From Peteryoungia algae (GTDB lineage Bacteria > Pseudomonadota > Alphaproteobacteria > Rhizobiales > Rhizobiaceae), in the NCBI RefSeq assembly GCF_030369675.1, contig NZ_CP128477.1:2956001-3020000 (forward strand): 64,000 nucleotides of DNA, written 5' to 3'. Under the pieces are notes generated by a model. It did not search any database, was not told where the DNA came from, and was given only the letters and a program-made list of their open reading frames with translations. The stretch's first letter is position 1, and the number at the start of each line of letters is the position of its first letter. This document shows, piece after piece, positions 6,135 to 61,289 of this stretch. The position numbers and the translations under genes were made by a program.

Positions 6135-6160
6135 GGAACATTCGCACCGCGGCGCACGTT
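6135..6160 (+). promoter_or_regulatory. EcfG (RpoE2)-type general-stress promoter
   Basis: The -35 element GGAAC (6135-6139) and the -10 element CGTT (6157-6160) are separated by 17 bases. This matches the alphaproteobacterial EcfG/SigT consensus GGAAC-N16-17-CGTT. The hydrolase ATG at 6183 lies 22 bases downstream, leaving a short leader with the ribosome binding site. The upstream in-frame ATG at 6117 would precede the promoter, which is why it was rejected as a start. Confidence 0.72.
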
Positions 6161-6182
6161 GCTTTGGCCGAGGTACACTGCG

Positions 6183-46942: not shown

Positions 46943-47790
46943 CCCTTGGTCGCTCCGAGTGTAAGGCCAGCGATGAAGTGGCGCTGCATCAGGAAAAACA
47001 TCGCAACCGGCGGCAAGGCCGCGACGATCGAACCGGCAGAGACGAGATGCCATGCGGCGACCCATTGGCCGTTCAGCGAATAGAGACCCGCCGTCACTGG
47101 CATGGCGTGCTGGCCCTGCACCAGGACCGTCGCCCAGAAGTAGTCGTTCCAGACGAAGGTGAAGATCAGCACCGACAGGGCAGCGATCGCCGGGCGCATC
47201 AGCGGCAACACGATGTAGCGGAAGATCCGCCATTCCGAGACGCCCTCAACGCGGGCAGACTCAATCAGTGCGAAGGGCAGGCCCTTGATGAAATTGCGCA
47301 TGAAGAGCGTGCAGAACCCGGTCTGGAAGGCGACGTGGAACAACACGAGACCCATCGTGGTATCGTAGAGACCCGCGCGCAGCGTCATGTCCCGTACCGG
47401 AACCATCAGGATCTGGAACGGGATGAAATTGCCAGCGACGAACATGAAGAACAGGACGAGATTGCCCTTGAACTTGTAGACCGCGAGCGCAAAGCCGGTG
47501 AGGCAGGAGAGTGCGACAGCCCCGATGGCCGTCGGGATCGTTACCTTGAACGAATTCAGGATGTAGTAGCCGATCGGCGAATTGTTGAAGACGGCCGAAT
47601 AGTTCTCGAAACCGGCGAACCCGGAGGGAATGCCGAAATAATTGCCGGCTGCGAGGTCGCCGGCCGGGCGAACCGACGTGATGGCGACGCCGATCAGCGG
47701 CAGAAGCCAGAGGAAAAGCGCCACCGGCAGCAGGATCTTGTAGGCCATCTGCGCAAGCGGGGAGGCCTTCTGGATCGGAGTGGGGAACAT
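46939..47790 (-). CDS. carbohydrate ABC transporter permease (MalG/LacG type)
   Basis: A 283-residue inner-membrane permease with six hydrophobic segments and the binding-protein-dependent transport motif EAA-like loop (ESARVEGVSEWRIFRYIVLPLMRP, near 190-213). The family position is CUT1. It couples to the other permease and the ATPase of this operon. Start and stop overlap its neighbours (TGATG with the upstream permease, ATGA with GH36), so stoichiometric synthesis is likely. The gene order resembles the lacEFG transporter of Agrobacterium/Ensifer. Confidence 0.94.
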   Translation of the reverse strand: MFPTPIQKASPLAQMAYKILLPVALFLWLLPLIGVAITSVRPAGDLAAGNYFGIPSGFAGFENYSAVFNNSPIGYYILNSFKVTIPTAIGAVALSCLTGFALAVYKFKGNLVLFFMFVAGNFIPFQILMVPVRDMTLRAGLYDTTMGLVLFHVAFQTGFCTLFMRNFIKGLPFALIESARVEGVSEWRIFRYIVLPLMRPAIAALSVLIFTFVWNDYFWATVLVQGQHAMPVTAGLYSLNGQWVAAWHLVSAGSIVAALPPVAMFFLMQRHFIAGLTLGATKG

Positions 47791-48698
47791 CAGGCGTTCC
47801 TTTCCTGGGCGAGCATGCGGACGATGAAGAGCGAGATGAAGACGATCATGATCAGGAACAGCACGACCGCAATCGACGCGCCGTAGCCCATGCGGAAGCC
47901 GTATTCGGAGAGCGCCTGCTCATACATGAAGTAGGACAGCACCGAACTCGAGCCGTAAGGGCCGCCGGCTGTCATGATCGAAACGAGGTCGAAGGAGCGC
48001 AGCGAGCCGATGACGGTCACCACCATGGCAATGAAGGTTGCCGGCGCGAGCTGCGGCAGGATCACGTACCAGAGCAGCTTCAGCCCCTTGGCGCCATCCA
48101 TTCGGGCGGCTTCCACCTGCTCATGATTGATGTTGTTGAGACCCGTCAGGTAGAGGATCATGCAATAGGCTGTCTGCGGCCAGAGACCCGCGACGATGAT
48201 ACCGTAGGTGACGTAACGCTCGTCGGCGAGCACCGCGATCTGCTCGCCCAACAGCACTTCCGTAAGCTTGGAAAACAGGCCGAAATCCGGGGCATAAAAC
48301 CAGGTGAACATCAGGCCGACAACGACCTGGCTGATCACGAAGGGAAAGAAGAACATCGACTTGTAGAGCCGTATGCCGGTGACGGTCTGGTTGAGGAAGA
48401 GCGCGACGGCAAGGCCCGCCGGGATCGACAGCAGGTAGAGCACCAGCCAGATCAGGTTGTTGTAGAGCGACGTGTAGAAGGTGTCGTCGTCGAGGAGCTC
48501 GACATAATTGCCGGCGCCGATCCAGGTCATGGCGCCGAGACCGTCCCAATCGTGGAAGCTGATCCAGATCGACTCGAAGATCGGGACAAGCACGTAGACC
48601 AGGAACATCAGCATGCCGGGCGCCAGGAACAGGAAAGGCGCGAGCGTCTGCTGGTTTCGCTTCCAGAAGCCGGACGATGAAGGAACGGTGTTGCTCAT
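47790..48698 (-). CDS. carbohydrate ABC transporter permease (MalF/LacF type)
   Basis: A 302-residue inner-membrane permease with six segments, the first at about 20-42. The coupling EAA loop is EQVEAARMDGAKGLKLLWYVILPQL (near 188-212). I chose ATG 48698, with AGAGGTG about six bases upstream; the frame extends 22 codons into the intergenic hairpin region without support. It forms a heterodimer with the next gene product. An mRNA hairpin separates it from the binding-protein gene, which probably lowers its expression relative to that protein. Confidence 0.93.
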   Translation of the reverse strand: MSNTVPSSSGFWKRNQQTLAPFLFLAPGMLMFLVYVLVPIFESIWISFHDWDGLGAMTWIGAGNYVELLDDDTFYTSLYNNLIWLVLYLLSIPAGLAVALFLNQTVTGIRLYKSMFFFPFVISQVVVGLMFTWFYAPDFGLFSKLTEVLLGEQIAVLADERYVTYGIIVAGLWPQTAYCMILYLTGLNNINHEQVEAARMDGAKGLKLLWYVILPQLAPATFIAMVVTVIGSLRSFDLVSIMTAGGPYGSSSVLSYFMYEQALSEYGFRMGYGASIAVVLFLIMIVFISLFIVRMLAQERNA

Positions 48699-48732
48699 GG
48701 CGGCACCTCTGAGAAAACAGGATACGGCAACC

Positions 48733-48766
48733 GGATGCCATGGGCCCAGGGAGACCCACAGCACCC
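48733..48766 (-). other. intercistronic hairpin after the galactoside-binding protein gene
   Basis: GGATGCCATGGG (48733-48744) and CCCACAGCACCC (48755-48766) pair over 12 bp, with three G-U wobbles in the minus-strand RNA. There is no T run, so it is probably an RNA-stabilising or processing element behind the binding-protein cistron rather than a terminator. Confidence 0.5.
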
Positions 48767-48786
48767 GGCGCAGGGAGCTTTATCGC

Positions 48787-50019
48787 TTACTTGTAAACGC
48801 GGGCGCGGACCTTTTCGAGCCGCTCCAGGATGGCGTCCAGACGATCCGGCTTGACCATGAACTCCTGGAAGCCTTCCATGCCGGCCTTTGCCATTTCGGC
48901 ATTGGCGTCGCGGTCGTAGAACTGCGCGAGCGCATAAGCGTTCGACAGCATCTCGAAACCGGCCTTCAGGAACGGATCAGCCGGCTTTTCGGCCTGGTTG
49001 TTGACCGGCAGCTGCCCGAGCGTGGCGTTCATCTTGCTCTGGGCTTCCGGCGAAGCGAGGTAGGCGAGGAACTTCTTCGCATCTTCCTTGTTCTTCGCGC
49101 CCGACGGGATGTGGAAGGTGTCGGTCGGAGCCTCTTCAGACATCGGGATGCCCGCTGTGATTTCCGGGAACTGCATGAAGCCGATCTGGTCTTCCTTCAA
49201 CCCGCCGTCCTTCATCGTGGCCACGGCGAAGTTGCCCATCAGATACATGGCCGCCTGGCCCTGGACCATCTGCGGGATGGCATCCTGCCAGTCGATCGCG
49301 GCATGGTTCTCGTTGAAGTATCCGGCCTTGACCAGCTCGCCCCACTTCTCGAACACGGCCTTCACGCGCGGATCCGTATAAGGAACCTTGCCGGAGGTCA
49401 CGTCCATGTGGAACTCATAGCCGTTGACGCGCAGGTTCAGATAGTCGAACCAGCCGCCCGTCGGCCACAGCGCCTTGGTGCCGATGGTGATCGGGGTAAC
49501 GCCGGCAGACTTCAGCTTTTCGCAAGCAGCAAGAAATTCCGTCCAGTTCTTCGGCGGCTCGATGCCCTGTTCGGCGAAGATGTCCTTACGATAGTAGATA
49601 CCCCACTGGTAGTAGGTGTAGGGAACGCCCCATTTCTTGCCGTCGATGGTCATGGAGGCGGAAGCCGACTTCAGCTGGTCGTTCAGGCCATTGGCCTCCC
49701 AGACATCCGAAACGTCTTCGAACAGACCTGCCTTGACGAAGGGCTCCATGCGGTTGCCGGCATACCATGCGGCAACATCGGGAGCGTCAGCGGTCAGGAA
49801 GTTGCGGATGGCAGATTTGTAGCCTTCGTGGTCGAAGTTGTTCCACTTGACCGTGATATCGGGGTTGGCCTTCTGGAAATCAGCGATCAACTCTTCCATC
49901 GCCTTCTTCGGCGCCGGATCCGATTGGTCGGAATTGAGAACGATTTCACCGGCAAACGCGGTGGAAGACAGAAGGGCAGCACCCAGAGCAATGCTGCTCA
50001 GGCTTTTGAAAAAGGTCAT
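48787..50019 (-). CDS. sugar ABC transporter substrate-binding protein (LacE-like)
   Basis: A 410-residue periplasmic solute-binding protein of the CUT1 (MalE-like, family 1) type. A Sec signal peptide covers 1-23 (MTFFKSLSSIALGAALLSSTAFA). The mature protein starts GEIVLNSDQSDPAPKKAMEE and shows aromatic residues (for example YYQWGIYY) typical of sugar pockets. I chose ATG 50019 with GGGAGGA six bases upstream; the upstream 52 codons of the frame are promoter DNA. It is the first gene of the galactoside importer operon and is divergent from the AraC regulator. The substrate is inferred to be an alpha- or beta-galactoside from the two glycosidases encoded downstream. Confidence 0.93.
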   Translation of the reverse strand: MTFFKSLSSIALGAALLSSTAFAGEIVLNSDQSDPAPKKAMEELIADFQKANPDITVKWNNFDHEGYKSAIRNFLTADAPDVAAWYAGNRMEPFVKAGLFEDVSDVWEANGLNDQLKSASASMTIDGKKWGVPYTYYQWGIYYRKDIFAEQGIEPPKNWTEFLAACEKLKSAGVTPITIGTKALWPTGGWFDYLNLRVNGYEFHMDVTSGKVPYTDPRVKAVFEKWGELVKAGYFNENHAAIDWQDAIPQMVQGQAAMYLMGNFAVATMKDGGLKEDQIGFMQFPEITAGIPMSEEAPTDTFHIPSGAKNKEDAKKFLAYLASPEAQSKMNATLGQLPVNNQAEKPADPFLKAGFEMLSNAYALAQFYDRDANAEMAKAGMEGFQEFMVKPDRLDAILERLEKVRARVYK

Positions 50020-50165
50020 GTTTTCCTCCCTATGACCGTTACGCAGTCCATATGCGGAGCTTGTGGCCCCGGATCCCACCGGAATTGTCAGCTCATCTTG
50101 ATCATCCGACTCAAACCCGTAATAATCCACCGAGTTTCGGCCTAAGTTTTCCGGGATCCTAAGAT
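50020..50165. promoter_or_regulatory. divergent promoter region, galactoside operon / araC-type gene
   Basis: These 146 bases separate the binding-protein gene from the AraC-type regulator. They should hold both promoters and the AraC-protein sites. GGATCC-containing blocks recur (near 50072 and 50153), but I could not define direct repeats with confidence. Confidence 0.4.
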
Positions 50166-51089
50166 TTGGAACCATTAGAGACAGTGCTTCGCGATGAATC
50201 CGTTCCTGTTCATCCCGATCACGATCCGCGCCATCCCCTGGTTGTCTTCGGCGACCACCGCTTTTGCGCCGGCGAAAGCATGACAGTGCACAAGATGGCC
50301 GGGCCGCACATGCACAGCCAGATCGAGCTGAACTTCGTGCTGACAGGCGCCATGACCTATTGGTTCGATGGCCGTGAACTGACCGTCGATGAGGGCAGGC
50401 TCTGCCTCTTCTGGGGTATGATTCCGCATCAGGTCATCGACCGGCGGGAGGGCACTCAGTTCATCTGCCTCTATGTACCCATGTCTGTTTTCCTTGGTCT
50501 GGCCAACCTCAACCGGTTTCGCGACGCAGTCTTCCGGGGCGCCATGATCGAGGCCTTGGAGATCCGCTCTTATGATCGGGACATTTTCGAGCGCTGGCGC
50601 CAGGAACTGCTCGCTGGCGATCCCGACCTGATGGAGATCGTCCGCAACGAGTTGACCGCGCGTGTGCTCAGGATCGAACGGGAAGGCTGGCGCGATCTGC
50701 GCGAAGAAGGGTCGGCAATTGCCAATTTCAGTACCAATGAAAGCGAGCGCGTCGAGCATATCGAACGCATGCTGCGCTTCATCGCTGAACACGCATTGGA
50801 AGAGATTTCGTCAGAGGATGTCGGGCGCGATGTGGGCCTGCATCCGAATTACGCGATGGCGATCTTCAAGCGGGCCGTTGGGCACACCATCAACCAGGCA
50901 ATCGTCCGCCATCGTCTCGATACCGCGCAATCGCTGCTGATTTCGACCGACCTGTCGATTACAGACGTGGCCTTCGAGAGTGGATTCGGTTCGGCCTCTC
51001 GCTTTTATGAGGCCTTTGCCGGTCGCTTCCGGGAAAAGCCGAAGGCCTTCCGCCGACGCATGCGATCGAAGGGGCTTCCGCCGACCTGA
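50166..51089 (+). CDS. AraC family transcriptional regulator
   Basis: A 307-residue regulator. The N-terminal cupin-like sugar-sensing domain (about 20-150) includes GPHMHSQIELNFVLTGAMTY. The C-terminal AraC DNA-binding domain (about 195-300) has two helix-turn-helix units, including ISSEDVGRDVGLHPNYAMAIFKRAVG and SITDVAFESGFGSASRFYEAF. It resembles MelR/RafR-type activators, fitting a role in the divergent galactoside operon. The open frame begins with TTG at 50166 and lacks a clear ribosome binding site; an internal GTG or the ATG at residue 39 are alternatives, so the N-terminus is uncertain. Confidence 0.9.
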   Translation: MEPLETVLRDESVPVHPDHDPRHPLVVFGDHRFCAGESMTVHKMAGPHMHSQIELNFVLTGAMTYWFDGRELTVDEGRLCLFWGMIPHQVIDRREGTQFICLYVPMSVFLGLANLNRFRDAVFRGAMIEALEIRSYDRDIFERWRQELLAGDPDLMEIVRNELTARVLRIEREGWRDLREEGSAIANFSTNESERVEHIERMLRFIAEHALEEISSEDVGRDVGLHPNYAMAIFKRAVGHTINQAIVRHRLDTAQSLLISTDLSITDVAFESGFGSASRFYEAFAGRFREKPKAFRRRMRSKGLPPT

Positions 51090-51101: not shown

Positions 51102-52190
51102 TCAACGATCGGCGATCGCGGATAGTCTCGGCATGGGGACACCCGGGCACCAGTCGCGGAAACCGATGATGCGACGAACGATCTTTTCCGGATGATGTCC
51201 GGCAATGTCTCGCAGCCGGTGGTCGAGATAGGGATTGCCGAACCGCTCCAGCGTCGTTTCAACATAGGCCTCGGCCTCATCACCCAGTTCATGCATCCGG
51301 AAACCGGGCACCACCTCGTTGCGATAGATCTGCTGGAGTTCCGCGCGGATCGCCGTGTCGGCAAGGATGTCCTTGACGCACTCCGCCTCGGGTCGCCCTT
51401 CTCTCATCCAGCGATCCGCAAGAACCGTGTGGCCGAGATTGAGAATATGCAACTTCAGCCTCTCGTAGGGTGTCAGATCAGCGACCACCTTGATGCAAGG
51501 ATGTTCGCACGGAAGGATGAGGCCAGTCTGCCGCTCGATCGCCCAGATCGCGTAGGGCTCGGCAATCGCACCCGCCGGCTCGATCGGCTCGGACACGATG
51601 CGATCGACGAGTGTGTTGCCCCAGACGACCCGCTTCGTCAGCCAGGAAATAAATGCCTCGTCAGGCGTGTGACGGCCAGCAAGATCGACGACGAGACGCT
51701 GAAGCACTTCGCCATTCCGCGAAATCAGTTCGCAGGGCAGAATTGTCAACGGCATGCCGCCGCCGCGAAAGCGCGCGTGGAGGAGCGCCAGAAGCTTCAT
51801 CGGGAAGGAACGCGGAACGCCGTTGACGCCGTCTCCATCGACAAGCGCATACCCCATGTCGCCTGTATTGCTGAGCACGACCCTCGCCTCTTCGACAAAG
51901 ATCCGGGTGACTTCGTCCCAGTCCTTTGCTGTGGACAGCGATCGGGTTACCGACCGTACGCGCAGCGCCCGCTCAACCGGCGTTCCACCTTCGAGGCCCC
52001 GGATAATCACCGGGTACCCCTCCGGCGCAGAGATCGCGCCTATCCGCCCCGCCCGCGTGGGGTCGCCGCTTGTCTGGACCACGGTGATCGACCCGATTGC
52101 ATGTCCTGACTCCATCGCCTCGCTGACGAAGAGGTCGGCATGCGCCTGAAGAAACCGGCTCGTGCCGAATTGCAGGATGGGCGTGCTCAT
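51102..52190 (-). CDS. mannitol-dehydrogenase-family oxidoreductase (tagaturonate/fructuronate reductase-like)
   Basis: A 362-residue polyol-dehydrogenase-family enzyme. The N-terminal Rossmann part begins ILQFGTSRFLQAHADLF. The C-terminal domain carries the catalytic pattern Lys246, Asn251 and His254 (KLHILNLGH). Related enzymes (UxaB, UxuB) reduce D-tagaturonate or D-fructuronate to D-altronate or D-mannonate. It is shorter than E. coli UxaB (about 480 residues). It starts three bases after gntR on the same strand and lies opposite the uxaA gene, so reduction of D-tagaturonate to D-altronate, the UxaA substrate, is the natural inference. Confidence 0.85.
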   Translation of the reverse strand: MSTPILQFGTSRFLQAHADLFVSEAMESGHAIGSITVVQTSGDPTRAGRIGAISAPEGYPVIIRGLEGGTPVERALRVRSVTRSLSTAKDWDEVTRIFVEEARVVLSNTGDMGYALVDGDGVNGVPRSFPMKLLALLHARFRGGGMPLTILPCELISRNGEVLQRLVVDLAGRHTPDEAFISWLTKRVVWGNTLVDRIVSEPIEPAGAIAEPYAIWAIERQTGLILPCEHPCIKVVADLTPYERLKLHILNLGHTVLADRWMREGRPEAECVKDILADTAIRAELQQIYRNEVVPGFRMHELGDEAEAYVETTLERFGNPYLDHRLRDIAGHHPEKIVRRIIGFRDWCPGVPMPRLSAIADR

Positions 52191-52193
52191 GGC

Positions 52194-53081
52194 TCAGACG
52201 GTCTCCTGTATGGATTGCAACAGCGTCTCGCGTGCCGACTTGAGATGTTGACGGCAGGCCTTTTCGACTTTCGCTGGATCGCGGGAAAACAGCGCCTGGA
52301 TGTAATCGAGATGCTCTTCCAGCGCCCGCTGGTTTCGGGCCCGCGCATTCGTCTTGTTCCACTGGTAGTGATAGTGAAAGACGATCGTGATGATGTCGTA
52401 GAAGTCGATGATGAAGCGGTTGCTCGATGCTTTCTGGACGAGCAGGTGGAAGCGCTCGTCCAGCTCCGAGAAGTCCATGTAGCGATTGTCGATATCGGCA
52501 AGCAGTGCATGATGTTGCGCTTCGACCAGCCGAAGCTCGGCCCAAGCCGGGTGATCCTCGGCCAGATGGACGAAACTCGCCGCCGAGCGGAGCTCGAACA
52601 TTTCGCGCACTTCTGTCAGTTCCAACGCAAATTCTCGGGTAAAGCCCTTGAGCACCCAATGGCTGTTCGGCCGCTTCTCGATGAGCCCGAAACGACTGAA
52701 GCGAATGAGAAATTCCCGCACGCTCGTGGTACCGATGCCGATTTCACGGGCAAGTTCCAGCTCGTTGATCTGCATGCCCGGCTGTGCGCCGCCGGCGAGG
52801 ATGCGGCGCATGAAACTGCGCTCGATGATCTCGGAGAGTGAACTCGTTTCCTCATCGGGAAAATAGTCAGACCCGATCGGCCGACGCAGTACGGTCTTGG
52901 AGCGCTTGTCCCAGGCGACGAGCCCCGCTTCGCCGAGCCGGGTGAGCACCGTGCGTACGGTCGTGCGGCTCACGCTCAACAGACCACAGAGCTCCGGTTC
53001 CGAGGGAAGCGTATCCGTCTCCTCGATCAGCTTCAGCGTGCGATTATAGGCGTCCTTGAAGACGGTGTTCTGCTTGGCCAT
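52194..53081 (-). CDS. GntR-family regulator with two winged-helix domains and FCD domain
   Basis: A 295-residue regulator with an unusual layout. The first GntR-like winged helix is at about 8-66 (SEPELCGLLSVSRTTVRTVL). The second is at about 82-146 (LELAREIGIGTTSVREFL). The FCD ligand-binding domain is about 152-280. FadR-class proteins normally have only one winged helix. I chose ATG 53081, with AGG about seven bases upstream, so both domains are complete. The tagaturonate-reductase-like gene follows with a three-base gap, and uxaA is divergent. It probably controls the sugar-acid genes on both sides; palindromes resembling TTTATCGATAAA in the divergent gap are candidate operators. Confidence 0.92.
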   Translation of the reverse strand: MAKQNTVFKDAYNRTLKLIEETDTLPSEPELCGLLSVSRTTVRTVLTRLGEAGLVAWDKRSKTVLRRPIGSDYFPDEETSSLSEIIERSFMRRILAGGAQPGMQINELELAREIGIGTTSVREFLIRFSRFGLIEKRPNSHWVLKGFTREFALELTEVREMFELRSAASFVHLAEDHPAWAELRLVEAQHHALLADIDNRYMDFSELDERFHLLVQKASSNRFIIDFYDIITIVFHYHYQWNKTNARARNQRALEEHLDYIQALFSRDPAKVEKACRQHLKSARETLLQSIQETV

Positions 53082-53230
53082 GGATCTGCCTGGGTTGATG
53101 TGATGCGGGGCTTTGGCCCTTCGCCTCTTGGCGCAAGACGCGAGCCCGCGCAATACCGCCGATTGCGGTGGCCTTTCCTTCTCTGCTCTCGGGTTTTCGC
53201 CCTCCCGCTCCCTGCTGGAGCAAATTGTTC

Positions 53231-53278
53231 TTTATCGATAGCATACCCATTGACGAGAAACTGTCTATTGCCGATAAA
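53231..53278. promoter_or_regulatory. candidate operator pair for the tandem-HTH GntR regulator
   Basis: In the 246-base gntR/uxaA gap lie TTTATCGATAGC (53231-53242) and ATTGCCGATAAA (53267-53278). They match the 12-base palindrome TTTATCGATAAA at 10 and 9 positions, and their centres are 36 bases apart. An exact copy of the palindrome lies before the transporter operon at 56448-56459. Confidence 0.6.
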
Positions 53279-53327
53279 AGACAAAACACAGGATCCGGTG
53301 CAGCCGGACACATGGGAGAAACATCAG

Positions 53328-54833
53328 GTGTCGAAACCAGCCTGCATCCTGCTGTCGCAGGACGACAATGTCGCCGTGACCACCGTTGCAATCGAGGCGG
53401 GGCACGTGCTGCCCGGCGGCGCGCCGGCAGCGGCAAAGATTGATCCCGGCCACAAGGTTGCGGTGAGAGCCATTCGCAAGGGCGAACCTGTCGTCAAATA
53501 TGCCCAGGCGATCGGCCGTGCCACCACGGACATTGCCGCAGGCGAGCATGTCCATTCCCACAATCTCGCCTTCGATGAAGATCGCCTGTCCGTCACCGGG
53601 CTCGCCCAGCCCGAAAACGCAACCGCAGCCGACAAGGGCCGCACCTTCCTGGGCTATCGCCGCGCCGACGGCCGTGCCGCGACCCGCAACTATATCGGCA
53701 TCATCGCCAGCGTAAACTGTTCCACCACGGTCTGCCGCGCGATCGCGGAAGCCGCCAACCGCACCATCCTGCCGCATTACGAGGGCATCGACGGCTTCGT
53801 GCCGATTGTCCACGATCAGGGCTGTGGCATGAGCTCGACCGGCGACGGCATGCGCACGCTGCATCGAACGATAGCCGGCTACACGAGGCATGTGAATTTC
53901 GGCGGCGTGCTGATGGTCGGTCTTGGCTGCGAGGTCAATCAGCTGACGCTATACGGCCAGAGCGGCGCCGGAGCCTCCAAGCGCCACTTCAACATCCAGG
54001 ACGCCGGCGGATCCCGTCGCGCGGTCGAGAACGCGCTTTCGATCCTCAAAGAGATCGCAGCCGAGGTCGGTACGATGCGCCGCGAACCGATTTCCGTCAG
54101 CGAGATTATCGTGGGACTGCAATGCGGCGGGTCGGACGGTCTGTCCGGCATCACAGCCAACCCGGCCCTCGGCGTGGCTGTCGATATCCTGGCCGGTGCC
54201 GGCGGCACGGCCATCCTGTCGGAGACCTCGGAGATCTATGGCGCCGAACACTTGCTGAGAAGCCGTGCGGTCAACGAGCAGGTCGCGGTCAAGCTGGACG
54301 GGCTGATCTCCTGGTGGGAGGCCTATGTCGCCCAGCACGGCGCCTCGCTGGACAACAACCCCTCTCCCGGCAACAAGAAGGGCGGCCTCACCACCATTCT
54401 CGAAAAATCGCTCGGGGCCGTCGCCAAGGGTGGGCGCTCGCCGCTGACAGCCGTCTACAACTACGCTGAACGCGTCACCGAACATGGCCTCGTCTTCATG
54501 GACACTCCCGGCTACGACCCGGTCTCCGCGACCGGCCAGGTGGCAGGGGGCGCCAATGTGATTGCCTTCACCACAGGCCGCGGCTCCTGTTTCGGCTCAC
54601 GCCCCGTGCCTTCGATCAAGCTGACGAGCAACACCGCGCTCTATAAATCGATGGAAGAGGACATGGACATCGACTGCGGCGTCATCGCCACGGGTGACGC
54701 CAGCGTCGCGGGCCTCGGCCGGAACATCTTCGACCTGATCATCGACACAGCCTCGGGCCAGAAGACCAAGAGCGAACTCTTCGGCTATGGCGACAACGAA
54801 TTCGTGCCGTGGCACCTGGGTGCCACGCTCTGA
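53328..54833 (+). CDS. uxaA: UxaA family altronate dehydratase
   Basis: A 501-residue dehydratase of the UxaA/GarD family. An N-terminal SAF domain covers about 1-95. The metal-dependent catalytic part starts at GYRRADGRAATRNYIGI and holds conserved cysteines in HDQGCGM, GLGCEVNQ, LQCGGSDGLSG and GRGSCFGSRPVPS. Family enzymes dehydrate D-altronate to 2-keto-3-deoxygluconate or act on related aldonates. The start is GTG 53328 with GGGAGA about eight bases before it; this gives the family length and excludes 76 codons of promoter DNA. The AKR gene follows 28 bases later. With the tagaturonate-reductase-like and LgoD-like genes it forms a coherent pathway. Confidence 0.92.
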   Translation: MSKPACILLSQDDNVAVTTVAIEAGHVLPGGAPAAAKIDPGHKVAVRAIRKGEPVVKYAQAIGRATTDIAAGEHVHSHNLAFDEDRLSVTGLAQPENATAADKGRTFLGYRRADGRAATRNYIGIIASVNCSTTVCRAIAEAANRTILPHYEGIDGFVPIVHDQGCGMSSTGDGMRTLHRTIAGYTRHVNFGGVLMVGLGCEVNQLTLYGQSGAGASKRHFNIQDAGGSRRAVENALSILKEIAAEVGTMRREPISVSEIIVGLQCGGSDGLSGITANPALGVAVDILAGAGGTAILSETSEIYGAEHLLRSRAVNEQVAVKLDGLISWWEAYVAQHGASLDNNPSPGNKKGGLTTILEKSLGAVAKGGRSPLTAVYNYAERVTEHGLVFMDTPGYDPVSATGQVAGGANVIAFTTGRGSCFGSRPVPSIKLTSNTALYKSMEEDMDIDCGVIATGDASVAGLGRNIFDLIIDTASGQKTKSELFGYGDNEFVPWHLGATL

Positions 54834-54861
54834 CCTCGACAACTGGGATCCGGAAATCAGC

Positions 54862-55881
54862 ATGAAAACGAGACGCATCGGCAAGACTGCCCTCGAAGTG
54901 ACAGAATACTCCTTCGGCACGGCACCGCTTGGCGGCCTCTACCGGCCCTGCCCCCGAGATACTGGCATCGCGACTCTGCAAGCGGCCTGGGATCATGGCA
55001 TCCGCTATTTCGACACCGCTCCGCATTACGGTTTCGGCCAGGCGGAGCGTTATGTCGGCGACTTCCTGCGCGACAAGCCGGAGGACAGCTATGTGCTGTC
55101 CACCAAGGTCGGCCGCCTCCTGGCACCGGTGCCGAAGGACCAGATTCCGAATGTCGGTTTCGTCGATCCTCTGCCCTTCAAGCTGGTCTATGATTACAGC
55201 TATGACGGCATCATGCGCTCGGTCGATTTCAGCTACGCCCGGCTCGGCCTGAACCGCATCGACATTCTCTATGTCCACGACATCGGCGTCTATACCCACG
55301 GCCGCGAAGCCAACGACCGCTACGTGAAGCAATTGCGAGACGGTGGCTACAAGGCCCTCGACCAGCTGAAATCCTCAGGTGCAATCAAGGCCTTCGGCCT
55401 CGGCGTCAACGAGGTGCCGGCCTGCCTCGAAATGATGGCCGACATTGACATCGATGTCATCCTGATGGCGGGCCGCTATTCGCTGCTCGATCGCTCCGCC
55501 GTCGAAGAACTGCTGCCGCTCTGCGAGAAGCGCGGCACGTCGATCACGGCTGGCGGTGTATTCAACTCCGGCATCCTGGCGACGGGCGCGGTTCCGGGCG
55601 CCCATTTCGATTACGCCCCGGCAACGGACGAGGTCCTCGCCAAGGTGCGCGCCATGGAGGAACTTGCAGCAAACGCCGGCAAGCCGCTTGCCCAGTTTGC
55701 GCTGCAGTTTCCGCTGCATCATCCGGCCGTTGCCTCCGTCATCATCGGTACGGCAAAGCCGGAAAGCCTTGATCGCAACATGGCATTGACGACCGAAGAA
55801 CTGCCGGGATCCGCCTTTGCCCCGTTCGAAACCCACACTCTCGTTGCACCGCCGCTCGGCGATGCCGCTGTCAGAGAATAG
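54862..55881 (+). CDS. aldo/keto reductase, aldose 1-dehydrogenase type (L-galactose/L-fucose dehydrogenase-like)
   Basis: A 339-residue NAD(P)-dependent aldo/keto reductase. It starts TRRIGKTALEVTEYSFGTAPLGG. The catalytic Asp-Tyr-Lys-His set is visible as YFDTAPHYGFGQ, STKVGRLL and YVHDIG. This branch includes D-threo-aldose 1-dehydrogenase, L-fucose dehydrogenase and plant-type L-galactose dehydrogenase, which oxidise C1 of sugars with L-galacto configuration to lactones. ATG 54862 has GGAAA eight bases upstream. It lies between uxaA and fucU, so oxidation of L-galactose or L-fucose is strongly suggested. The exact sugar needs a test. Confidence 0.9.
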   Translation: MKTRRIGKTALEVTEYSFGTAPLGGLYRPCPRDTGIATLQAAWDHGIRYFDTAPHYGFGQAERYVGDFLRDKPEDSYVLSTKVGRLLAPVPKDQIPNVGFVDPLPFKLVYDYSYDGIMRSVDFSYARLGLNRIDILYVHDIGVYTHGREANDRYVKQLRDGGYKALDQLKSSGAIKAFGLGVNEVPACLEMMADIDIDVILMAGRYSLLDRSAVEELLPLCEKRGTSITAGGVFNSGILATGAVPGAHFDYAPATDEVLAKVRAMEELAANAGKPLAQFALQFPLHHPAVASVIIGTAKPESLDRNMALTTEELPGSAFAPFETHTLVAPPLGDAAVRE

Positions 55882-55890
55882 GAGCGCGCC

Positions 55891-56337
55891 ATGTTGAAGG
55901 GCATCCATCCCCTGCTCGGACCCGACCTGCTGCATGCCATCGCGACCATGGGCCATGGAGACGAGATCGTGATTGCCGACGGCAATTTTCCGGCAAGCAC
56001 CATGGGGCCGCCGGTAATCCGCGCCGATGGCGTCGGCGCCGTGGAGATCCTGGAGGCAATCCTTGCCCACATGCCGCTCGACCAGTTCGTCGAGGATGCG
56101 GCCTGGCGCATGCAGGTCGTCGGCGATCCGCATGCGGTACCGGAGATCTGCGCCGAATTCCAGGCGATGATCACGAAACTGGCCGGCGACGTACAGCTGG
56201 AAAGTCTTGAGCGCTTCGCCTTTTACCAGCGCGCACAAACGGCGGCCTACATCGTCGCGACCACGGAATTACGGATCTACGGCAACGTCATCCTGAAGAA
56301 GGGCGTCGTGTATCCCGAAGAAATTCACCGGGTCTGA
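55891..56337 (+). CDS. fucU: RbsD/FucU family sugar mutarotase (L-fucose mutarotase)
   Basis: A 148-residue protein of the RbsD/FucU family, which interconverts sugar anomers. The N-terminal MLKGIHPLLGPDLLHAIATM and GHGDEIVIADGNFPA match FucU, including the catalytic His/Asp region. TTELRIYGNVILKKGVV closes the protein. FucU acts on L-fucose and accepts other L-galacto sugars, providing the anomer used by the adjacent aldose dehydrogenase. The ATG has AGGAG about seven bases upstream and is nine bases after the AKR stop, in the same operon. Confidence 0.94.
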   Translation: MLKGIHPLLGPDLLHAIATMGHGDEIVIADGNFPASTMGPPVIRADGVGAVEILEAILAHMPLDQFVEDAAWRMQVVGDPHAVPEICAEFQAMITKLAGDVQLESLERFAFYQRAQTAAYIVATTELRIYGNVILKKGVVYPEEIHRV

Positions 56338-56429
56338 TAGAAGCGCGGAATACCCTGAAAACAAGGGCGAAAGGGCTTCGGAGGAGACCATTTTTGTCCG
56401 CTTGCATTCTCCAGAATGCTGGAGTAGCG

Positions 56430-56459
56430 TGCCTCGATAAAATGTTTTTTATCGATAAA
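56430..56459 (+). promoter_or_regulatory. palindromic operator before the sugar transporter genes
   Basis: The perfect palindrome TTTATCGATAAA is at 56448-56459. An imperfect copy with the intact half CGATAAA lies just upstream (56430-56441, 9 of 12 matches), centre to centre 18 bases. The site is 69 bases before the binding-protein start and is shared with the gntR/uxaA gap. A hairpin-forming CTCCAG-AATG-CTGGAG (56409-56424) precedes it. Confidence 0.62.
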
Positions 56460-56528
56460 GATCTACCTGGTTGCGTGCTGCGGGTTGATCTCACCGGAGG
56501 AACAGGACGCGTTGAGAGGAGAACCACA

Positions 56529-57515
56529 ATGACCATTCTGAAGAGCATGACTCGCCGCGCCCTGATGGGGATCGCCGGCGCTGCAATGATGACGTCGATG
56601 ATGCCGGCCGCATCCTTCGCCCAGGACGTAACCATTCCGATCATCGTCAAGGACACCACGTCCTTCTACTGGCAGATCGTGCTCGCCGGCGCTCGCCAGG
56701 CCGGCAAGGACCTTGGCGTGAGCGTGCCTGAACTCGGCGCCCAGTCGGAGTCCGACATCAACGGTCAGATCAGCATCCTGGAGAATGCAGTGGCTGGCAG
56801 CCCTGCAGCTGTCGTCATCTCGCCAACCGAATTCAAGGCACTCGGCAAGCCGATCGACGAAGCTGCCAAGTCGGTTCCGATCATCGGCATCGATTCCGGT
56901 GCGGATTCCGAGGCATTCACCTCGTTCTTGACCACCGACAACGTTCAGGGCGGCCGCATCGCGGCTGACGGCCTGGCAGCAGCAATCAAAGAAGCAACCG
57001 GCAAGGAGGAAGGCGAAGTCGCCATCATCACCAGTCTGCCGGGCGTCGGTTCGCTCGACCAGCGCCGTGAAGGCTTCCTCGACCAGATGAAGACGAAGTA
57101 TCCGGGCATCACGATCGTCGTCGACCGCTTCGCCGATGGTCAGGCTACAACCGGCCTCAACATGATGACCGACTTGATCACCGCAAACCCGAATATCGTT
57201 GGCGTCTTCGCCTCGAACCTGATCATGGCACAGGGCGTCGGCCAGGCGATCGCCGAAAACAAGCTCGGCGACAAGATCAAGGTCATCGGCTTCGACTCGG
57301 ATGAAAAGACCGTCGGCTTCCTCAAGGAAGGCGTTCTCGCCGGCCTCGTTGTCCAGGATCCCTACCGCATGGGCTACGACGGCGTGAAGACGGCGCTCGC
57401 GGTGTCCAAGGGCGAAAAGGTCGAGACCTTCGTCGACACCGGCGCAAATCTCGTGACCCAGGCCAATATGGCTGAGCCCAAGATGGATGCCCTTCTGAAC
57501 CCGAAGGTCAACTGA
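56529..57515 (+). CDS. sugar ABC transporter substrate-binding protein (RbsB-like)
   Basis: A 328-residue periplasmic binding protein of the ribose/galactose type (Peripla_BP_4). A signal peptide covers about 1-32, ending ASFAQ; the RR near its start is followed by a hydrophobic core that fits either Sec or Tat export. The mature part shows the ribose-binding fold: PIIVKDTTSFYWQIVLAGARQAG, SPTEFKAL, GIDSGAD, GVFASNLIMAQG and VIGFDSDE. ATG 56529 has GAGGAG seven bases upstream. It has a 191-base leader with its own palindromic operator, so it likely has its own promoter in addition to readthrough from fucU. The substrate is inferred to be a hexose such as L-galactose or L-fucose. Confidence 0.93.
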   Translation: MTILKSMTRRALMGIAGAAMMTSMMPAASFAQDVTIPIIVKDTTSFYWQIVLAGARQAGKDLGVSVPELGAQSESDINGQISILENAVAGSPAAVVISPTEFKALGKPIDEAAKSVPIIGIDSGADSEAFTSFLTTDNVQGGRIAADGLAAAIKEATGKEEGEVAIITSLPGVGSLDQRREGFLDQMKTKYPGITIVVDRFADGQATTGLNMMTDLITANPNIVGVFASNLIMAQGVGQAIAENKLGDKIKVIGFDSDEKTVGFLKEGVLAGLVVQDPYRMGYDGVKTALAVSKGEKVETFVDTGANLVTQANMAEPKMDALLNPKVN

Positions 57516-57523
57516 TCGAACTG

Positions 57524-57555
57524 CCGGCACGCGCGGCGTCCGTCGCGCGTGCCGG
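57524..57555 (+). other. intercistronic hairpin after the RbsB-like gene
   Basis: A perfect 12-bp stem (CCGGCACGCGCG with CGCGCGTGCCGG) around an 8-base loop begins nine bases after the binding-protein stop. No T run follows. Such hairpins usually stabilise the 5' binding-protein message and lower expression of downstream transporter genes. Confidence 0.65.
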
Positions 57556-57616
57556 ACCGGAAACGGCGGGCGCGGGAGGCGTCGGCCGCTTTCCCTGACT
57601 TGAGGGAGGAATGGAC

Positions 57617-59170
57617 ATGACTTCGCTGCACGATGTGAGCCACCGGCACGACGACCAGCCGGAACTGCGGGAGACCGATCGCATCCCGCCGGGAACGCCG
57701 ATCCTCGAACTCGTCGGCCTGCAGAAGAAGTATGGCGCCGTGGAGGCGCTTAAGCCCGCAACGATCAGCTTCCTGGCCGGTGAAATCCATGCCATCGTCG
57801 GCGAAAACGGAGCCGGGAAATCCACCCTCATCAAGCTTTTGACCGGTGTCATCCCGCGCACATCAGGCGAGATACGCTGGTGCGGCAAGAACGTGGCGCT
57901 GGCGACACCCAATGAAGCGATCAATCGCGGCATCAACGCCGTGCATCAGGAGGTCGTGCTTTGCGCGCACCTGACGGTTGCCGCGAACATGTTCCTGGGC
58001 GACGAAATTTCCTCAGGCGGCATCATGCGCCAACGGGCCATGACGACCGCTGCCCAGAACGTGCTCGACGACCTCGGTTTCAATCTTCCTGCCGGCGAGA
58101 TCCTCGGCAATCTGACGATCGGCCAGCAGCAACTGGTCGCTACGGCCCGAGCCGCGATGCGCGGGATCCGTTTCCTGATCTTCGACGAGCCGACGGCTTA
58201 CCTCACTCGGCAGGAATCGGCCCAGCTCTTCCGCCTCATCCGGCGCCTGCAGTCGGAAGGCGTGACAATCGTCTATATCAGCCATCGCATGGAAGAGGTC
58301 TTCGAACTCGCTGACCGCGTCTCGGTTCTGCGCGACGGCACCCATGTCGGCACACGCCTGATTGGCGAGACCGACGATGCCGAACTCATTTCGCTGATGA
58401 TCAACCGCTCGATCGAGCAGATCTACCACAAGGAAAAGCTGCCGATCGGCGAGACCATTCTCGAAACGAAGGGTCTTTCCGGTCCCGGTTTTTCGGATGT
58501 CTCGCTGTCGGTCCGCTCGGGCGAGATCGTCGGCCTCTACGGACTGATCGGCGCCGGCCGCAGTGAATTTGCACTCGGCCTCTATGGCCGCCACAAATGC
58601 AGCGCCGGCGATGTCTTCTGGGACGGCAAGAAGGTCGTCATCGCCACCGAGCGCAAGGCAATGGATCTCGGAATTGCGCTCGCACCAGAAAGCCGGCGCG
58701 ACCAGGGTCTTTGCCTCAATCTGCCGATCGGCCTCAACATCAACCTGCCGGTCTTCGGTCGCTTGAGCCGGGGCCTCACCATCAGTCGAAAGCTTGAAGC
58801 GGGGAATGCCGACAAGCAAATCGATGACCTCATGATCAAGACCCCGACCCGGGCTGTACTCGCCTCGGCCATGTCGGGCGGCAATCAGCAGAAGATCGTC
58901 ATCGGCAAATGGTTGAGCCATGGCGCGCGCCTCTTCATCTTCGACGAGCCCACCGTGGGCGTCGATGTCGGCACCAAGGCGGAAATCTACCGCCTTTTCG
59001 CCGAGCTCCTGAAGCAGGGCGCCGGCATTATCCTGATCTCGTCATACCTGCCGGAGGTCTACGAGCTGGCAGACCGTCTGCACGTGTTCCGCCAGGGCAG
59101 GCTGGTGGCGAGCCACGACTATCGAAGCGCATCGCATGAAGACGTGCTGACAGAGGCGATCGGCGTCTGA
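57617..59170 (+). CDS. sugar ABC transporter ATP-binding protein (RbsA-like, two ATPase domains)
   Basis: A 517-residue protein with two fused ABC ATPase domains, the CUT2 arrangement. The first domain has Walker A GENGAGKST (near 67), a signature-like LTIGQQQLV and Walker B FLIFDEPTAYL. The second has signature MSGGNQQK and Walker B IFDEPTVGVD; its Walker A site is degenerate (GLIGAGRSEF), which is normal for this class. I chose ATG 57617, seven bases after GGAGG; the ATG at 57611 directly abuts that site. It powers uptake with the permease at 59.2 kb. Confidence 0.93.
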   Translation: MTSLHDVSHRHDDQPELRETDRIPPGTPILELVGLQKKYGAVEALKPATISFLAGEIHAIVGENGAGKSTLIKLLTGVIPRTSGEIRWCGKNVALATPNEAINRGINAVHQEVVLCAHLTVAANMFLGDEISSGGIMRQRAMTTAAQNVLDDLGFNLPAGEILGNLTIGQQQLVATARAAMRGIRFLIFDEPTAYLTRQESAQLFRLIRRLQSEGVTIVYISHRMEEVFELADRVSVLRDGTHVGTRLIGETDDAELISLMINRSIEQIYHKEKLPIGETILETKGLSGPGFSDVSLSVRSGEIVGLYGLIGAGRSEFALGLYGRHKCSAGDVFWDGKKVVIATERKAMDLGIALAPESRRDQGLCLNLPIGLNINLPVFGRLSRGLTISRKLEAGNADKQIDDLMIKTPTRAVLASAMSGGNQQKIVIGKWLSHGARLFIFDEPTVGVDVGTKAEIYRLFAELLKQGAGIILISSYLPEVYELADRLHVFRQGRLVASHDYRSASHEDVLTEAIGV

Positions 59171-59220
59171 GACGAGATCCCCGCAAACAACGACACGAAA
59201 AGACGACTGGGAGGACAATG

Positions 59221-60192
59221 ATGAGCACCGACACTACAGAGACCAAGGTCGCGCCGAAGAGGGGCATGAGCATCCTTTTCAGCCTCACTCTGCTTGGGCT
59301 CCTGCTCTTCCTGTGGCTGCTTCTCGGCTTTGCGACCAACAGCTTCTGGACCCCGAACAACATCAGCAATCTGCTGCGCCAGGGTTCGATGACGGCGATC
59401 CTTGCCGTCGGGCAGACATTCGTCATCATCACAGCCGGCATCGACCTTTCGGTCGGTGCCGTCGTCGGCTTTGCCAGTGTCATTTTGGCCTGGCTCCTGG
59501 CAGCCGGTCTGCCTGTCTGGCTTGCGATCATCTTGACGCTCCTGATGGGTGCCGCGATCGGCAGCTTCCACGCCTTTGGCATCGTCCGCATGGGTCTGCC
59601 GGCCTTCATCATCACGCTGGCCACACTCACTTCGCTGCGCGGTATCGGTCTTTTGATCACCAACGGTTCGACCATCTCGATCTCCAACGACGCCTTCACG
59701 AACTTCGCTCGCGCCGATTTCCTCGGCGTACCCAGCCTGTTCTGGATGGTCATCGTCGTTGCCGTGCCTGCCTATATCTTCCTGCACCTGAGCCGCTGGG
59801 GACGCTATCTCTTTGCGGTCGGCTCCAACGGTGAAGCGGCCCGCCTCTCGGGCGTCAACGTCAACCGCACGATCTACATGGCTTATATCCTGTCCTCGAC
59901 CTGCGCGGCCTTTGTCGGCATCCTGCTGGCCTCGCGCATCGGGATCGGCAACGCCACCCAGGCGGAAGGCTGGGAATTGCAGGCGATCGCATCTTCGGTT
60001 ATCGGCGGTACCAGCCTCTTCGGCGCCGTCGGTTCGGTGCAGGGTCCACTGCTCGGCGCCTTCATTCTGGCGACGATCAACAACGGCGCCAACCTGATGA
60101 ACGTCAACTCCTTCTGGCAGCGCATCATCACCGGTGCCCTGATTATCCTGATCGTCTACTTCGACCAGCTCCGCCGCCGTGGCAGCCGCTGA
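59221..60192 (+). CDS. sugar ABC transporter permease (RbsC-like)
   Basis: A 323-residue inner-membrane permease of the ribose/xylose (CUT2) type with eight to ten hydrophobic segments. The family segments ITAGIDLSVGAVVGFASV and RRGSR at the C-terminus are present, as is GSNGEAARLSGVNVNRTIYMAYILS, the permease loop contacting the ATPase. ATG 59221 lies six bases after GGAGG; the adjoining ATG 59218 is the alternative. It is the last gene before an intrinsic terminator, so the zinc dehydrogenase gene further on is expressed only by readthrough or its own promoter. Confidence 0.93.
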   Translation: MSTDTTETKVAPKRGMSILFSLTLLGLLLFLWLLLGFATNSFWTPNNISNLLRQGSMTAILAVGQTFVIITAGIDLSVGAVVGFASVILAWLLAAGLPVWLAIILTLLMGAAIGSFHAFGIVRMGLPAFIITLATLTSLRGIGLLITNGSTISISNDAFTNFARADFLGVPSLFWMVIVVAVPAYIFLHLSRWGRYLFAVGSNGEAARLSGVNVNRTIYMAYILSSTCAAFVGILLASRIGIGNATQAEGWELQAIASSVIGGTSLFGAVGSVQGPLLGAFILATINNGANLMNVNSFWQRIITGALIILIVYFDQLRRRGSR

Positions 60193-60206
60193 GAGTTTCC
60201 CAAGGT

Positions 60207-60237
60207 GGGGGTGCCGCGAATGGCATCCCCTTTTTTT
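60207..60237 (+). terminator. intrinsic terminator between permease and zinc dehydrogenase gene
   Basis: GGGGGTGCC (60207-60215) pairs with GGCATCCCC (60222-60230) through one wobble, and seven T follow. The next gene starts only 36 bases later on the same strand. Confidence 0.82.
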
Positions 60238-60272
60238 GTCAAGATCTTGCCGGGCAGCCGAAAGGAACCAAC

Positions 60273-61289
60273 ATGAAGGCCGCATTGTGTGTCGAACCGG
60301 GCCGTCTCGAAATCGTCGATCGCGATCCGGCGCCGCGTCCAGGAGCGGGTGAAGCTCGCATCGCCATCAGCCATGTCGGTATATGCGGCACCGACTACCA
60401 CATCTTCGAGGGCAAGCACCCCTTCCTCGAATACCCGCGCGTGATGGGCCACGAGATCTCGGCCACCATCGTGGAGGCTGGCGAAGGGGTCGACCTGCCG
60501 GCCGGCATGAAGGTCATCGTCAACCCCTACATCGCCTGTGGCACCTGCATCGCCTGCCGCAAGGAAAAACCCAACTGCTGCACGAACATTCGTGTGCTGG
60601 GCGTGCATGGCGATGGCGCCATGTGCGAGGAGATCACGGTGCCGTCGGGCAATCTCTATCCGGCAGGCGATCTTTCACCGGAAGCCGCCGCCACGGTCGA
60701 ATTCCTGGCGATCGGCGCCCATGCCGTCCGCCGATCCATGGCCCCCTCGGGCTCACGGGCGCTGGTGATCGGCGCCGGCCCCATCGGACTTGGCACGGCG
60801 ATCTTCGCGCGCATAGCTGGCCACGCGGTGACCCTGCTCGATACCAGCCAGGAACGCCTGAAAATGGCAGCCGATCGCCTCGGCTTCTCGACAGGACTGC
60901 TGGCCGATGAGGGCCTGGAAGCTTCGGTCGAGGAACTCACCGGGGGAGACGGCTTCGACGTTGTCTTTGACGCTACGGGCTATCGACCCTCGATGGAACG
61001 CGCCTTCCGCTTCGTTGCCCATGGGGGAAGCCTCGTGCTCGTCAGCGTCGTGAAGGAGGACATCACCTTCTCCGATCCGGAATTTCACAAACGCGAGATG
61101 ATGCTGATTGGCAGCCGCAACGCGACCCGCATCGACTTCGATCACGTCCGCAAGTCCATCGCCGAAGGACGTGTGCCGATCGACCAGTTGATCACGCACC
61201 GCACGACCATGGCGGATCTCGCAACGGATCTGCCGCGCTGGGCGCGCGAGAAATCGGGCCTGATCAAGGCTCTCATCAAGATCGGCTGA
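60273..61289 (+). CDS. zinc-dependent sugar-acid dehydrogenase, L-galactonate 5-dehydrogenase-like (LgoD/YjjN)
   Basis: A 338-residue zinc MDR dehydrogenase. Catalytic zinc ligands are Cys38 and His60/Glu61 (GICGTD and MGHE). The structural zinc site is Cys89, Cys92, Cys95 and Cys103. The NAD-binding motif GAGPIGLG is at 167-174. Segments such as NCCTNIRVLGVHGDG, HAVRRSMAP and FSDPEFHKREMMLIGSRNAT closely resemble E. coli YjjN/LgoD, as I recall it, which oxidises L-galactonate to D-tagaturonate. That activity would link the AKR step to the tagaturonate-reductase-like and UxaA steps encoded nearby. The ATG has AAAGGAA upstream. L-fuconate or L-idonate remain alternative substrates. Confidence 0.88.
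   Translation: MKAALCVEPGRLEIVDRDPAPRPGAGEARIAISHVGICGTDYHIFEGKHPFLEYPRVMGHEISATIVEAGEGVDLPAGMKVIVNPYIACGTCIACRKEKPNCCTNIRVLGVHGDGAMCEEITVPSGNLYPAGDLSPEAAATVEFLAIGAHAVRRSMAPSGSRALVIGAGPIGLGTAIFARIAGHAVTLLDTSQERLKMAADRLGFSTGLLADEGLEASVEELTGGDGFDVVFDATGYRPSMERAFRFVAHGGSLVLVSVVKEDITFSDPEFHKREMMLIGSRNATRIDFDHVRKSIAEGRVPIDQLITHRTTMADLATDLPRWAREKSGLIKALIKIG

Follow-up and report, generated by a model that had tools for sequence, protein, structure and literature searches.

Positions 51102-61289 of the DNA analysed here (the window: 64,000 nucleotides, 2956001-3020000 of the one-contig 4.4 Mb genome of Peteryoungia algae) hold nine genes that are predicted to convert L-galactose, a rare sugar of plants and algae, to 2-keto-3-deoxygluconate (KDG), a chemistry known from other bacteria. 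In the lgu cluster of Luteolibacter LG18, described as a dual L-glucose/L-galactose pathway, the reaction order is the same when compared by description: L-galactose dehydrogenase, L-galactonate dehydrogenase, tagaturonate reductase, altronate dehydratase, KDG kinase and 2-keto-3-deoxy-6-phosphogluconate (KDPG) aldolase (PMC12632266). The P. algae locus differs in carrying an ABC importer, a FucU mutarotase and a GntR regulator, with kinase and aldolase outside it, whereas the lgu regulator is annotated Btr. The same source cites the L-galactose and L-galactonate dehydrogenases BVU_0219 and BVU_0222 of Phocaeicola (Bacteroides) vulgatus, which lead to D-tagaturonate; that pathway belongs to a different phylum and is likened to this one by description only. 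The LgoD-UxaB-UxaA route of E. coli employs the same three families as the zinc dehydrogenase, reductase and dehydratase of the locus, but there lgoD, uxaB and uxaA lie apart, the gene of the galactonate symporter LgoT is found by lgoD, and UxaB is about 120 residues longer than the reductase considered here.

The importer, aldo-keto reductase (AKR), dehydratase, regulator and zinc dehydrogenase genes all have orthologues in the SMc02770-SMc02775 region of Sinorhizobium meliloti (PMC3454389), and strain Ak57 keeps their order. Unlike the P. algae locus, the Ak57 cluster (hpaI, GntR, altronate dehydratase, AKR, binding protein, ATPase, permease, zinc dehydrogenase, phaZ) has neither FucU nor the short reductase, and the function given in print rests on ligand binding and induction. 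In the non-phosphorylating L-fucose/D-arabinose pathways of Herbaspirillum and Paraburkholderia, the AKR (in that for D-arabinose), the AltD-family dehydratase and the mutarotase are alike, but the published schemes need no LgoD- or UxaB-type enzyme (PMC6336799, PMC11199699). Rhizobial L-galactose catabolism was not found among the titles and abstract openings of the literature searched. The original claim that no rhizobial version had been described is nevertheless not supported as stated, since SMc02772-SMc02775 are in print as a putative L-fucose system (PMC3454389). We regard the rhizobial form as a variant of known chemistry; an L-galactose route with an LgoD-UxaB-UxaA core is a well-supported prediction from sequence.

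According to the lgu study, no organism was found that has Lgu orthologues minus the L-glucose epimerase, i.e. for L-galactose alone (PMC12632266). The clusters described here are candidates for such a role, by analogous genes rather than by Lgu orthology. If this proves true, Rhizobiaceae would possess an L-galactose pathway, perhaps including the model symbiont S. meliloti, where the importer is named for L-fucose, and root- or alga-associated bacteria would be linked to a sugar that takes part in making ascorbate and occurs in red-algal galactans. The case would also illustrate how one sugar of a look-alike family could be redirected by a short epimerising cassette.

The proposed pathway and its enzymes

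It seems likely, with some reserve, that the locus encodes a pathway for L-galactose, with L-fucose probably using the same import and first oxidation. A CUT2 ABC transporter would import L-galactose, FucU would interconvert its anomers and the AKR would oxidise C1 to the lactone, the ring being opened spontaneously or by a distant lactonase. The LgoD-type zinc dehydrogenase would oxidise L-galactonate at C5 to D-tagaturonate and the short UxaB-type reductase would convert this to D-altronate, with a net inversion of C5, after which the UxaA-type enzyme would dehydrate D-altronate to KDG. KDG kinase and KDPG aldolase, encoded elsewhere, would lead into the Entner-Doudoroff route. L-fucose (and D-arabinose) would probably pass through the same importer and first oxidation, and their acids would then be handled by other genes. 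The identity of the substrate is less certain than the chemistry from L-galactonate through D-tagaturonate and D-altronate to KDG; to our knowledge, only the C5 inversion of L-galactonate, as in E. coli and Luteolibacter (PMC12632266), needs both redox enzymes before a UxaA-type step. The gene families, their orthology and modular linkage, the conservation of the operator and the presence of kinase and aldolase families were computed directly.

All nine genes of the original prediction are present, with the families it named (open reading frame (ORF) list, Pfam and NCBIfam), at the coordinates given below. Their order is identical in all seven loci from a contig scan with the reductase as query, including those of Peteryoungia aggregata, Rhizobium rhizophilum and Agrobacterium albertimagni, so that the arrangement is not due to chance. 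Among these close relatives (L011-L017; L and G numbers denote our loci and genomes), the reductase is clearly less conserved (80-84% identity) than its eight neighbours (89-99%). G107, of the same genus, has no such AKR at E 1e-40. Enzymatic activities, inducer and physiological substrate are in each case what we infer.

The zinc dehydrogenase (60273-61289, + strand; ADH_N and ADH_zinc_N domains) is predicted to be an L-galactonate 5-dehydrogenase. Over 336 residues it shares 43.5% identity with E. coli LgoD (263 bits), compared with 30.8% for E. coli RspB (148 bits), which bears out its initial description as LgoD/YjjN-like. The phylogenetic comparison with LgoD that had been suggested points the same way: in a tree of 27 such proteins and seven E. 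coli relatives, with long branches flagged, it forms a clade with LgoD (support 97/90) and RspB lies outside, although an arrangement joining it to RspB without LgoD is not formally rejected (approximately unbiased test, p-AU 0.08).

The reductase (51102-52190, - strand; Mannitol_dh and Mannitol_dh_C domains), a predicted D-tagaturonate reductase, is a short form of 361 residues, as against 483 in E. coli UxaB. It scores 204 bits with the NCBIfam tagaturonate reductase model and 59 with that for fructuronate reductase; being below the NF002969 cut-off (204 vs 359 bits) and short of full length, it is a short UxaB-like variant outside this curated family. The Lys-Asn-His pattern previously read as UxaB-type is real, K245, N250 and H253 being invariant in eight short reductases and in E. 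coli UxaB, but it is also invariant in UxuB and alone cannot separate the two. In the tree (long branches flagged), 22 short reductases group with E. coli UxaB (support 100/95) and not with UxuB, YdfI, four rhizobial UxuB-like proteins or the MtlK-like protein of P. algae itself, in a tree that contains no arabinitol dehydrogenases; a grouping with UxuB is rejected (p-AU 1.2e-6). The comparison proposed at the outset thus comes out in favour of UxaB. A protein search at E 1e-3 yields 4534 homologues, a number that takes in the wider family. The named sources of the best 120 are Ensifer/Sinorhizobium, Shinella, Pararhizobium, Rhizobium and Agrobacterium, and labels among them range over "mannitol dehydrogenase family", "tagaturonate reductase", "altronate oxidoreductase" and "D-mannonate oxidoreductase".

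The UxaA/AltD-family dehydratase (53328-54833, + strand), whose start is placed here at GTG 53328, correcting an earlier one, carries SAF, GD_AH_second and GD_AH_C domains and is the sole PF04295 match in the genome. It reaches 370 of 731 bits with the galactarate NCBIfam model and is predicted, from its gene context, to be a D-altronate dehydratase. Membership of the AltD family does not fix the substrate, since a Herbaspirillum member is a D-arabinonate dehydratase with an efficiency about 6,700-fold lower on D-altronate (PMC6336799). The AKR (54862-55881, + strand; PF00248) is a predicted L-galactose/L-fucose 1-dehydrogenase. Its comparison was with solved structures, the named bacterial L-fucose/D-arabinose AKRs lying outside that set, and the five best relatives there are all L-galactose dehydrogenases (1.1e-33 to 1.7e-26; next 1.2e-15). 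The FucU-type mutarotase (55891-56337, + strand) scores 140 bits with PF05025, above cut-off, and 121 bits with the NCBIfam L-fucose mutarotase model NF011949 (cut-off 141). A second FucU copy was rejected as an L-fucose locus because it adjoins a ROK regulator and a CUT2 transporter, presumably those of a fructose (frc) operon.

The KDG kinase and KDPG aldolase families are present elsewhere in the genome, as one KdgK-like gene (42% identity, at 3837319) and two PF01081 matches. A role of the UxaA- and UxaB-type enzymes in galacturonate use was judged unlikely, since the only other mannitol-dehydrogenase-family protein of the genome is YdfI/MtlK-like and the genome encodes a relative of PDB 4ggb/4hpn, the galactarolactone cycloisomerase of the oxidative galacturonate route. 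Outside the window (G000:C1:2560001-2580000, L169) lies an enolase-superfamily protein with 3,6-anhydro-L-galactonate cycloisomerase as best solved match (5xd7, 586 bits). Its neighbours, named by eye, are a CUT2 importer, an aldehyde-dehydrogenase-like ORF, a zinc dehydrogenase, a short-chain dehydrogenase/reductase (SDR) and a DUF1537-like kinase ORF, possibly an agar-sugar locus in a Rhizobiaceae genome.

Linkage of the catalytic trio and its recurrence as a module

When 199 genomes of the family are searched with the AKR, 122 have a match at E 1e-40 and 30 besides the window have one of at least 63% identity. Forty AKR neighbourhoods were opened, 29 of these 30 and 11 weaker ones, and the linkage counts take no account of relatedness among genomes. 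Zinc dehydrogenase occurs in 24 of the 40. The short reductase is found in 11, always with zinc dehydrogenase (11/11, Fisher p 0.0012), and the dehydratase in 17, 16 of them with zinc dehydrogenase (p 0.0002). When 35 genomes are searched for the dehydratase, 34 carry a single copy and the remaining one carries two; in 17 genomes it is inside the AKR cluster at 72% identity or more and then nowhere else. In L130 and L143, from genomes whose zinc-dehydrogenase cluster has no dehydratase, the copy stands beside UxuB- and UxaC-like genes, as expected of an altronate dehydratase. On a Mesorhizobium huakuii plasmid (L199, 5024-10011), a zinc dehydrogenase (64%) is accompanied by a GntR gene and a distant importer, with neither reductase nor dehydratase within the 19 kb stretch.

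The trio of zinc dehydrogenase, reductase and dehydratase recurs as a module apart from this importer. It is missing from four AKR clusters with an orthologous importer (L049, L050, L075, L076), but two of the genomes concerned carry dehydratase, zinc dehydrogenase, reductase and GntR genes as a group at another site (L133, L138). In G084, zinc dehydrogenase, GntR and reductase genes form a group of their own (L194), and L154 has the trio together away from this importer. Of 385 genomes searched across the class, five have the short reductase, P. algae among them, and zinc dehydrogenase adjoins it in three of the other four. Ten plasmid-collection loci were picked by hand, five from 59 zinc-dehydrogenase records (reductase in three, dehydratase in four) and five from 51 reductase records (zinc dehydrogenase in all five, dehydratase in three).

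The trio stands beside TRAP importers in Thioclava, Paroceanicella and Thalassospira. On the Thioclava and Paroceanicella plasmids, TRAP importer, GntR, zinc dehydrogenase, reductase and dehydratase are followed by a sugar kinase with 35% (Thioclava) and 45% (Paroceanicella) identity to E. coli KdgK, our strongest indication that KDG is the end product of the trio. In G083, where no good KdgK match is found elsewhere, a PfkB-type kinase (28-29%) lies next to the GntR gene of the cluster. A Sphingomonas plasmid (L202) carries the same catalytic set with a differently annotated importer, mutarotase and regulator: FucP, SDR, amidohydrolase, AKR, split UxaA, reductase, rhamnose-mutarotase-type protein, zinc dehydrogenase and IclR. 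The SDR is 59% identical to the 2-keto-3-deoxy-L-fuconate (KDF)-dehydrogenase-like protein of P. algae. The split gene, in Sphingomonas parapaucimobilis, is a UxaA-family dehydratase annotated as two adjacent genes (5683-7214). In Paracoccus seriniphilus (L207, 1-8000), a sugar ABC importer, a sulfatase, an SMP-30 lactonase, a rhamnose-mutarotase-type protein and an amidohydrolase precede the cluster, hinting at a sulfated algal polysaccharide as source.

The importer and the choice of substrate

The three CUT2 importer genes (56529-60192, + strand) encode a sugar-binding protein (56529-57515), an ATP-binding protein (57611-59170; PF00005) and a permease (59218-60192; PF02653). The binding protein is a close relative of PDB 4rxt (Arad_9553, 545 bits), the ligand of which is taken to be D-arabinose. 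Its S. meliloti orthologue is SMc02774; the Ak57 counterpart, 88% identical to the P. algae protein, matches the printed SMc02774 residues at six of six positions (Q33, K42, R180, N231, Q277, N329). SMc02774 binds L-fucose with a Kd of 3.6 nM and L-rhamnose with one of 1.6 uM, but neither D-fucose nor pyruvate; D-fucose, pyruvate and L-fucose all induce its gene (PMC3454389). The exclusive role in L-galactose use that had been proposed is therefore not supported as stated. A protein search with a relative's binding protein gave no S. meliloti name among the best 120 matches, and the predicted structure model of the P. algae protein is too poor to use (mean pLDDT, the predicted local distance difference test, 47.6). 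The Ak57 sequence, CP090106.1 (L198), is titled plasmid pSymB, but at 3.7 Mb and with trpAB, accD and phaZ it looks like a wrongly labelled chromosome.

Genes suited to an L-fucose branch occur in and around related clusters. KDF-dehydrogenase-like genes follow zinc dehydrogenase in L055, L059 and L063 and are also present in L144 and L156. At 2.08 Mb in the P. algae genome lie genes for an amidohydrolase, an IclR regulator, a KDF-dehydrogenase-like protein and an FAA hydrolase, in a 20 kb stretch that also holds a polyamine-type-looking ABC importer and hydrolases and has no match to the AKR, dehydratase or binding protein of the locus. With regard to the lactonase step of the L-galactose pathway, an amidohydrolase adjoins the cluster in four importer-containing relatives (L056, L058, L066, L068); P. 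algae has one distant match. An enolase-type L-fuconate dehydratase was dropped as a candidate, none being named among the PDB matches listed for the four strongest of six MR_MLE_C proteins. An HpcH/HpaI-type aldolase lies on the GntR/reductase side in L056 (5407-6213) and in S. meliloti (L198, 743-1543), with a homologous ORF in 12 other opened loci and none in the window.

Several observations weigh against the L-galactose pathway proposed here. The S. meliloti binding protein has nanomolar affinity for L-fucose, and its gene responds to D- and L-fucose and to pyruvate, in passages that mention no L-galactose test (PMC3454389). The dehydratase is slightly nearer GarD (38.2%) than UxaA (35.6%) of E. 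coli, and homologues from the AltD and AKR families may favour D-arabinonate or D-arabinose/L-fucose, a Paraburkholderia AKR being active on D-arabinose, L-fucose and L-galactose (PMC6336799). "Near-complete", as the locus was first called, is apt only if spontaneous or distant steps are allowed, since the ORF list and Pfam give no lactonase within it, and neither KDG kinase nor aldolase. The association of reductase with dehydratase is not significant (7/11, p 0.15). Eight of the 24 zinc-dehydrogenase clusters are without dehydratase, and although all eight genomes have a copy elsewhere, this carries little weight because all 35 genomes hold one. The plasmid-collection counts suffer from the selection by hand. 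Finally, the short reductase is missing from 13 of the 24 zinc-dehydrogenase clusters and from that of Ak57; three of those 13 genomes hold it elsewhere and ten have none, nor was it found anywhere in G149 and G063, the other two genomes whose AKR cluster is without the trio. Nine of the ten have two or three weak long matches to the mannitol-dehydrogenase family and G057 has one; in G138 and G045, one long match is UxuB-type and stands beside UxuA. Absence of the short reductase in ten genomes is the weakest point of the model.

That the locus is for L-fucose (or D-arabinose) only appears unlikely. The AKR would then be an L-fucose dehydrogenase and the UxaA-type enzyme an L-fuconate (D-arabinonate) dehydratase, filling the step for which no enolase-type enzyme was named among the matches of the four proteins searched. 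The product would be finished by the KDF-dehydrogenase-like protein and the hydrolase from the 2.08 Mb stretch, and zinc dehydrogenase and reductase would be side activities. The nanomolar affinity of the SMc02774 orthologue, the growth of S. meliloti on L-fucose and D-arabinose (PMC4207669, Table 2), the KDF-dehydrogenase-like and FAA-hydrolase genes of P. algae, the KDF-dehydrogenase-like genes in the five clusters named above, and the published D-arabinonate dehydratase of the AltD family and AKR for D-arabinose, L-fucose and L-galactose (PMC6336799) all speak for it. It is kept at low weight since it leaves two conserved enzymes, LgoD-type and UxaB-type, without a task. Zinc dehydrogenase is linked to both reductase and dehydratase, the stand-alone trio ends in a KdgK-like kinase in two relatives, acids without a C6-hydroxyl cannot end in KDPG, and the 2.08 Mb stretch has no operator copy at up to four mismatches. 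An external sugar acid as main substrate, L-galactonate or another hexonate such as L-gulonate, with the AKR incidental, is very unlikely. The trio with TRAP importers in Thioclava, Paroceanicella and Thalassospira, with no AKR in the stretch shown, would suit it, as would the reported acceptance of L-gulonate by E. coli LgoD; L-gulonate would, however, need a mannonate dehydratase rather than a UxaA-type enzyme. CUT2 importer, FucU and AKR are inside the locus and kept in seven of seven close relatives, and the S. meliloti binding protein is described as taking neutral sugars (PMC3454389).

A more serious contender, to which we give somewhat less than an even chance, is a hub with two branches, in which L-galactose and L-fucose have one importer, mutarotase, aldose dehydrogenase and UxaA-type dehydratase in common, and only the C6-hydroxyl acid is sent to the Entner-Doudoroff route, by a detachable cassette for C5 inversion (LgoD-type and short UxaB-type). 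This cassette would have been shuffled among importers, mutarotases and regulators across Alphaproteobacteria. Genes of both branches occur in one cluster in Sphingomonas L202, in L144 and, without the dehydratase, in L156, and we read such clusters as having shared upper steps and separate lower branches for L-galactose and L-fucose. D-altronate, L-galactonate and D-arabinonate have their C2-C4 configuration in common, and one AltD-family enzyme has some activity on D-altronate, L-galactonate and L-fuconate (PMC6336799). On the other side, the two gene sets are 0.9 Mb apart in P. algae, the D-arabinose and L-fucose clusters of P. mimosarum are each induced only by their own sugar (PMC6336799), and Luteolibacter LguA, which oxidises L-galactose, is described as inactive on L-fucose and D-arabinose (PMC12632266).

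Regulation and adjoining genes

The GntR/FCD regulator gene (about 52194-53081, - strand; PF00392 and PF07729), with its start at ATG 53081 from the conserved alignment, is apparently co-transcribed with the reductase gene, from which a few bases separate it, and is divergent from the dehydratase gene. In the conserved intergenic block between them, a putative promoter was read by eye (TTGACG, 17 nt, GATAAA; 53250-53283, + strand); a scan for consensus promoters listed a pair on the - strand and not this one. Overlapping it upstream of the dehydratase is the palindrome TGTCTATTGCCGATAAAAGACA (53262-53283), a candidate GntR operator at which the regulator would probably act over the dehydratase promoter.

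The TGTCTATTGCCGATAAAAGACA block is largely conserved over 14 aligned intergenic regions, that of L058 being one base longer. Its pattern has one match in the window at up to three mismatches, compared with a mean of 0.00 in 100 shuffles, and is found exactly in 39 of 197 loci, a set in which some places are represented by more than one overlapping copy. In L066 and L068 the exact pattern precedes the reductase, and forms with one mismatch occur in L069, L070, L072, L074 and the unlinked L194 module. At up to four mismatches it is found neither in L093 and L169-L171, which include kdgK and the first aldolase, nor in the independent clusters L144, L155 and L156; at up to three, on one strand, it does not occur in L201-L203, L206 and L207. 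As these independent clusters show no copy, we regard the operator as specific to the rhizobial form.

On the reductase side, the locus adjoins a further group of genes (47790-51089 of the window) with a sugar ABC binding protein (48787-50175, - strand) followed by a permease-like ORF, and a divergent AraC-type regulator (50166-51089, + strand). The AraC-type regulator and the binding protein are kept in the seven relatives.

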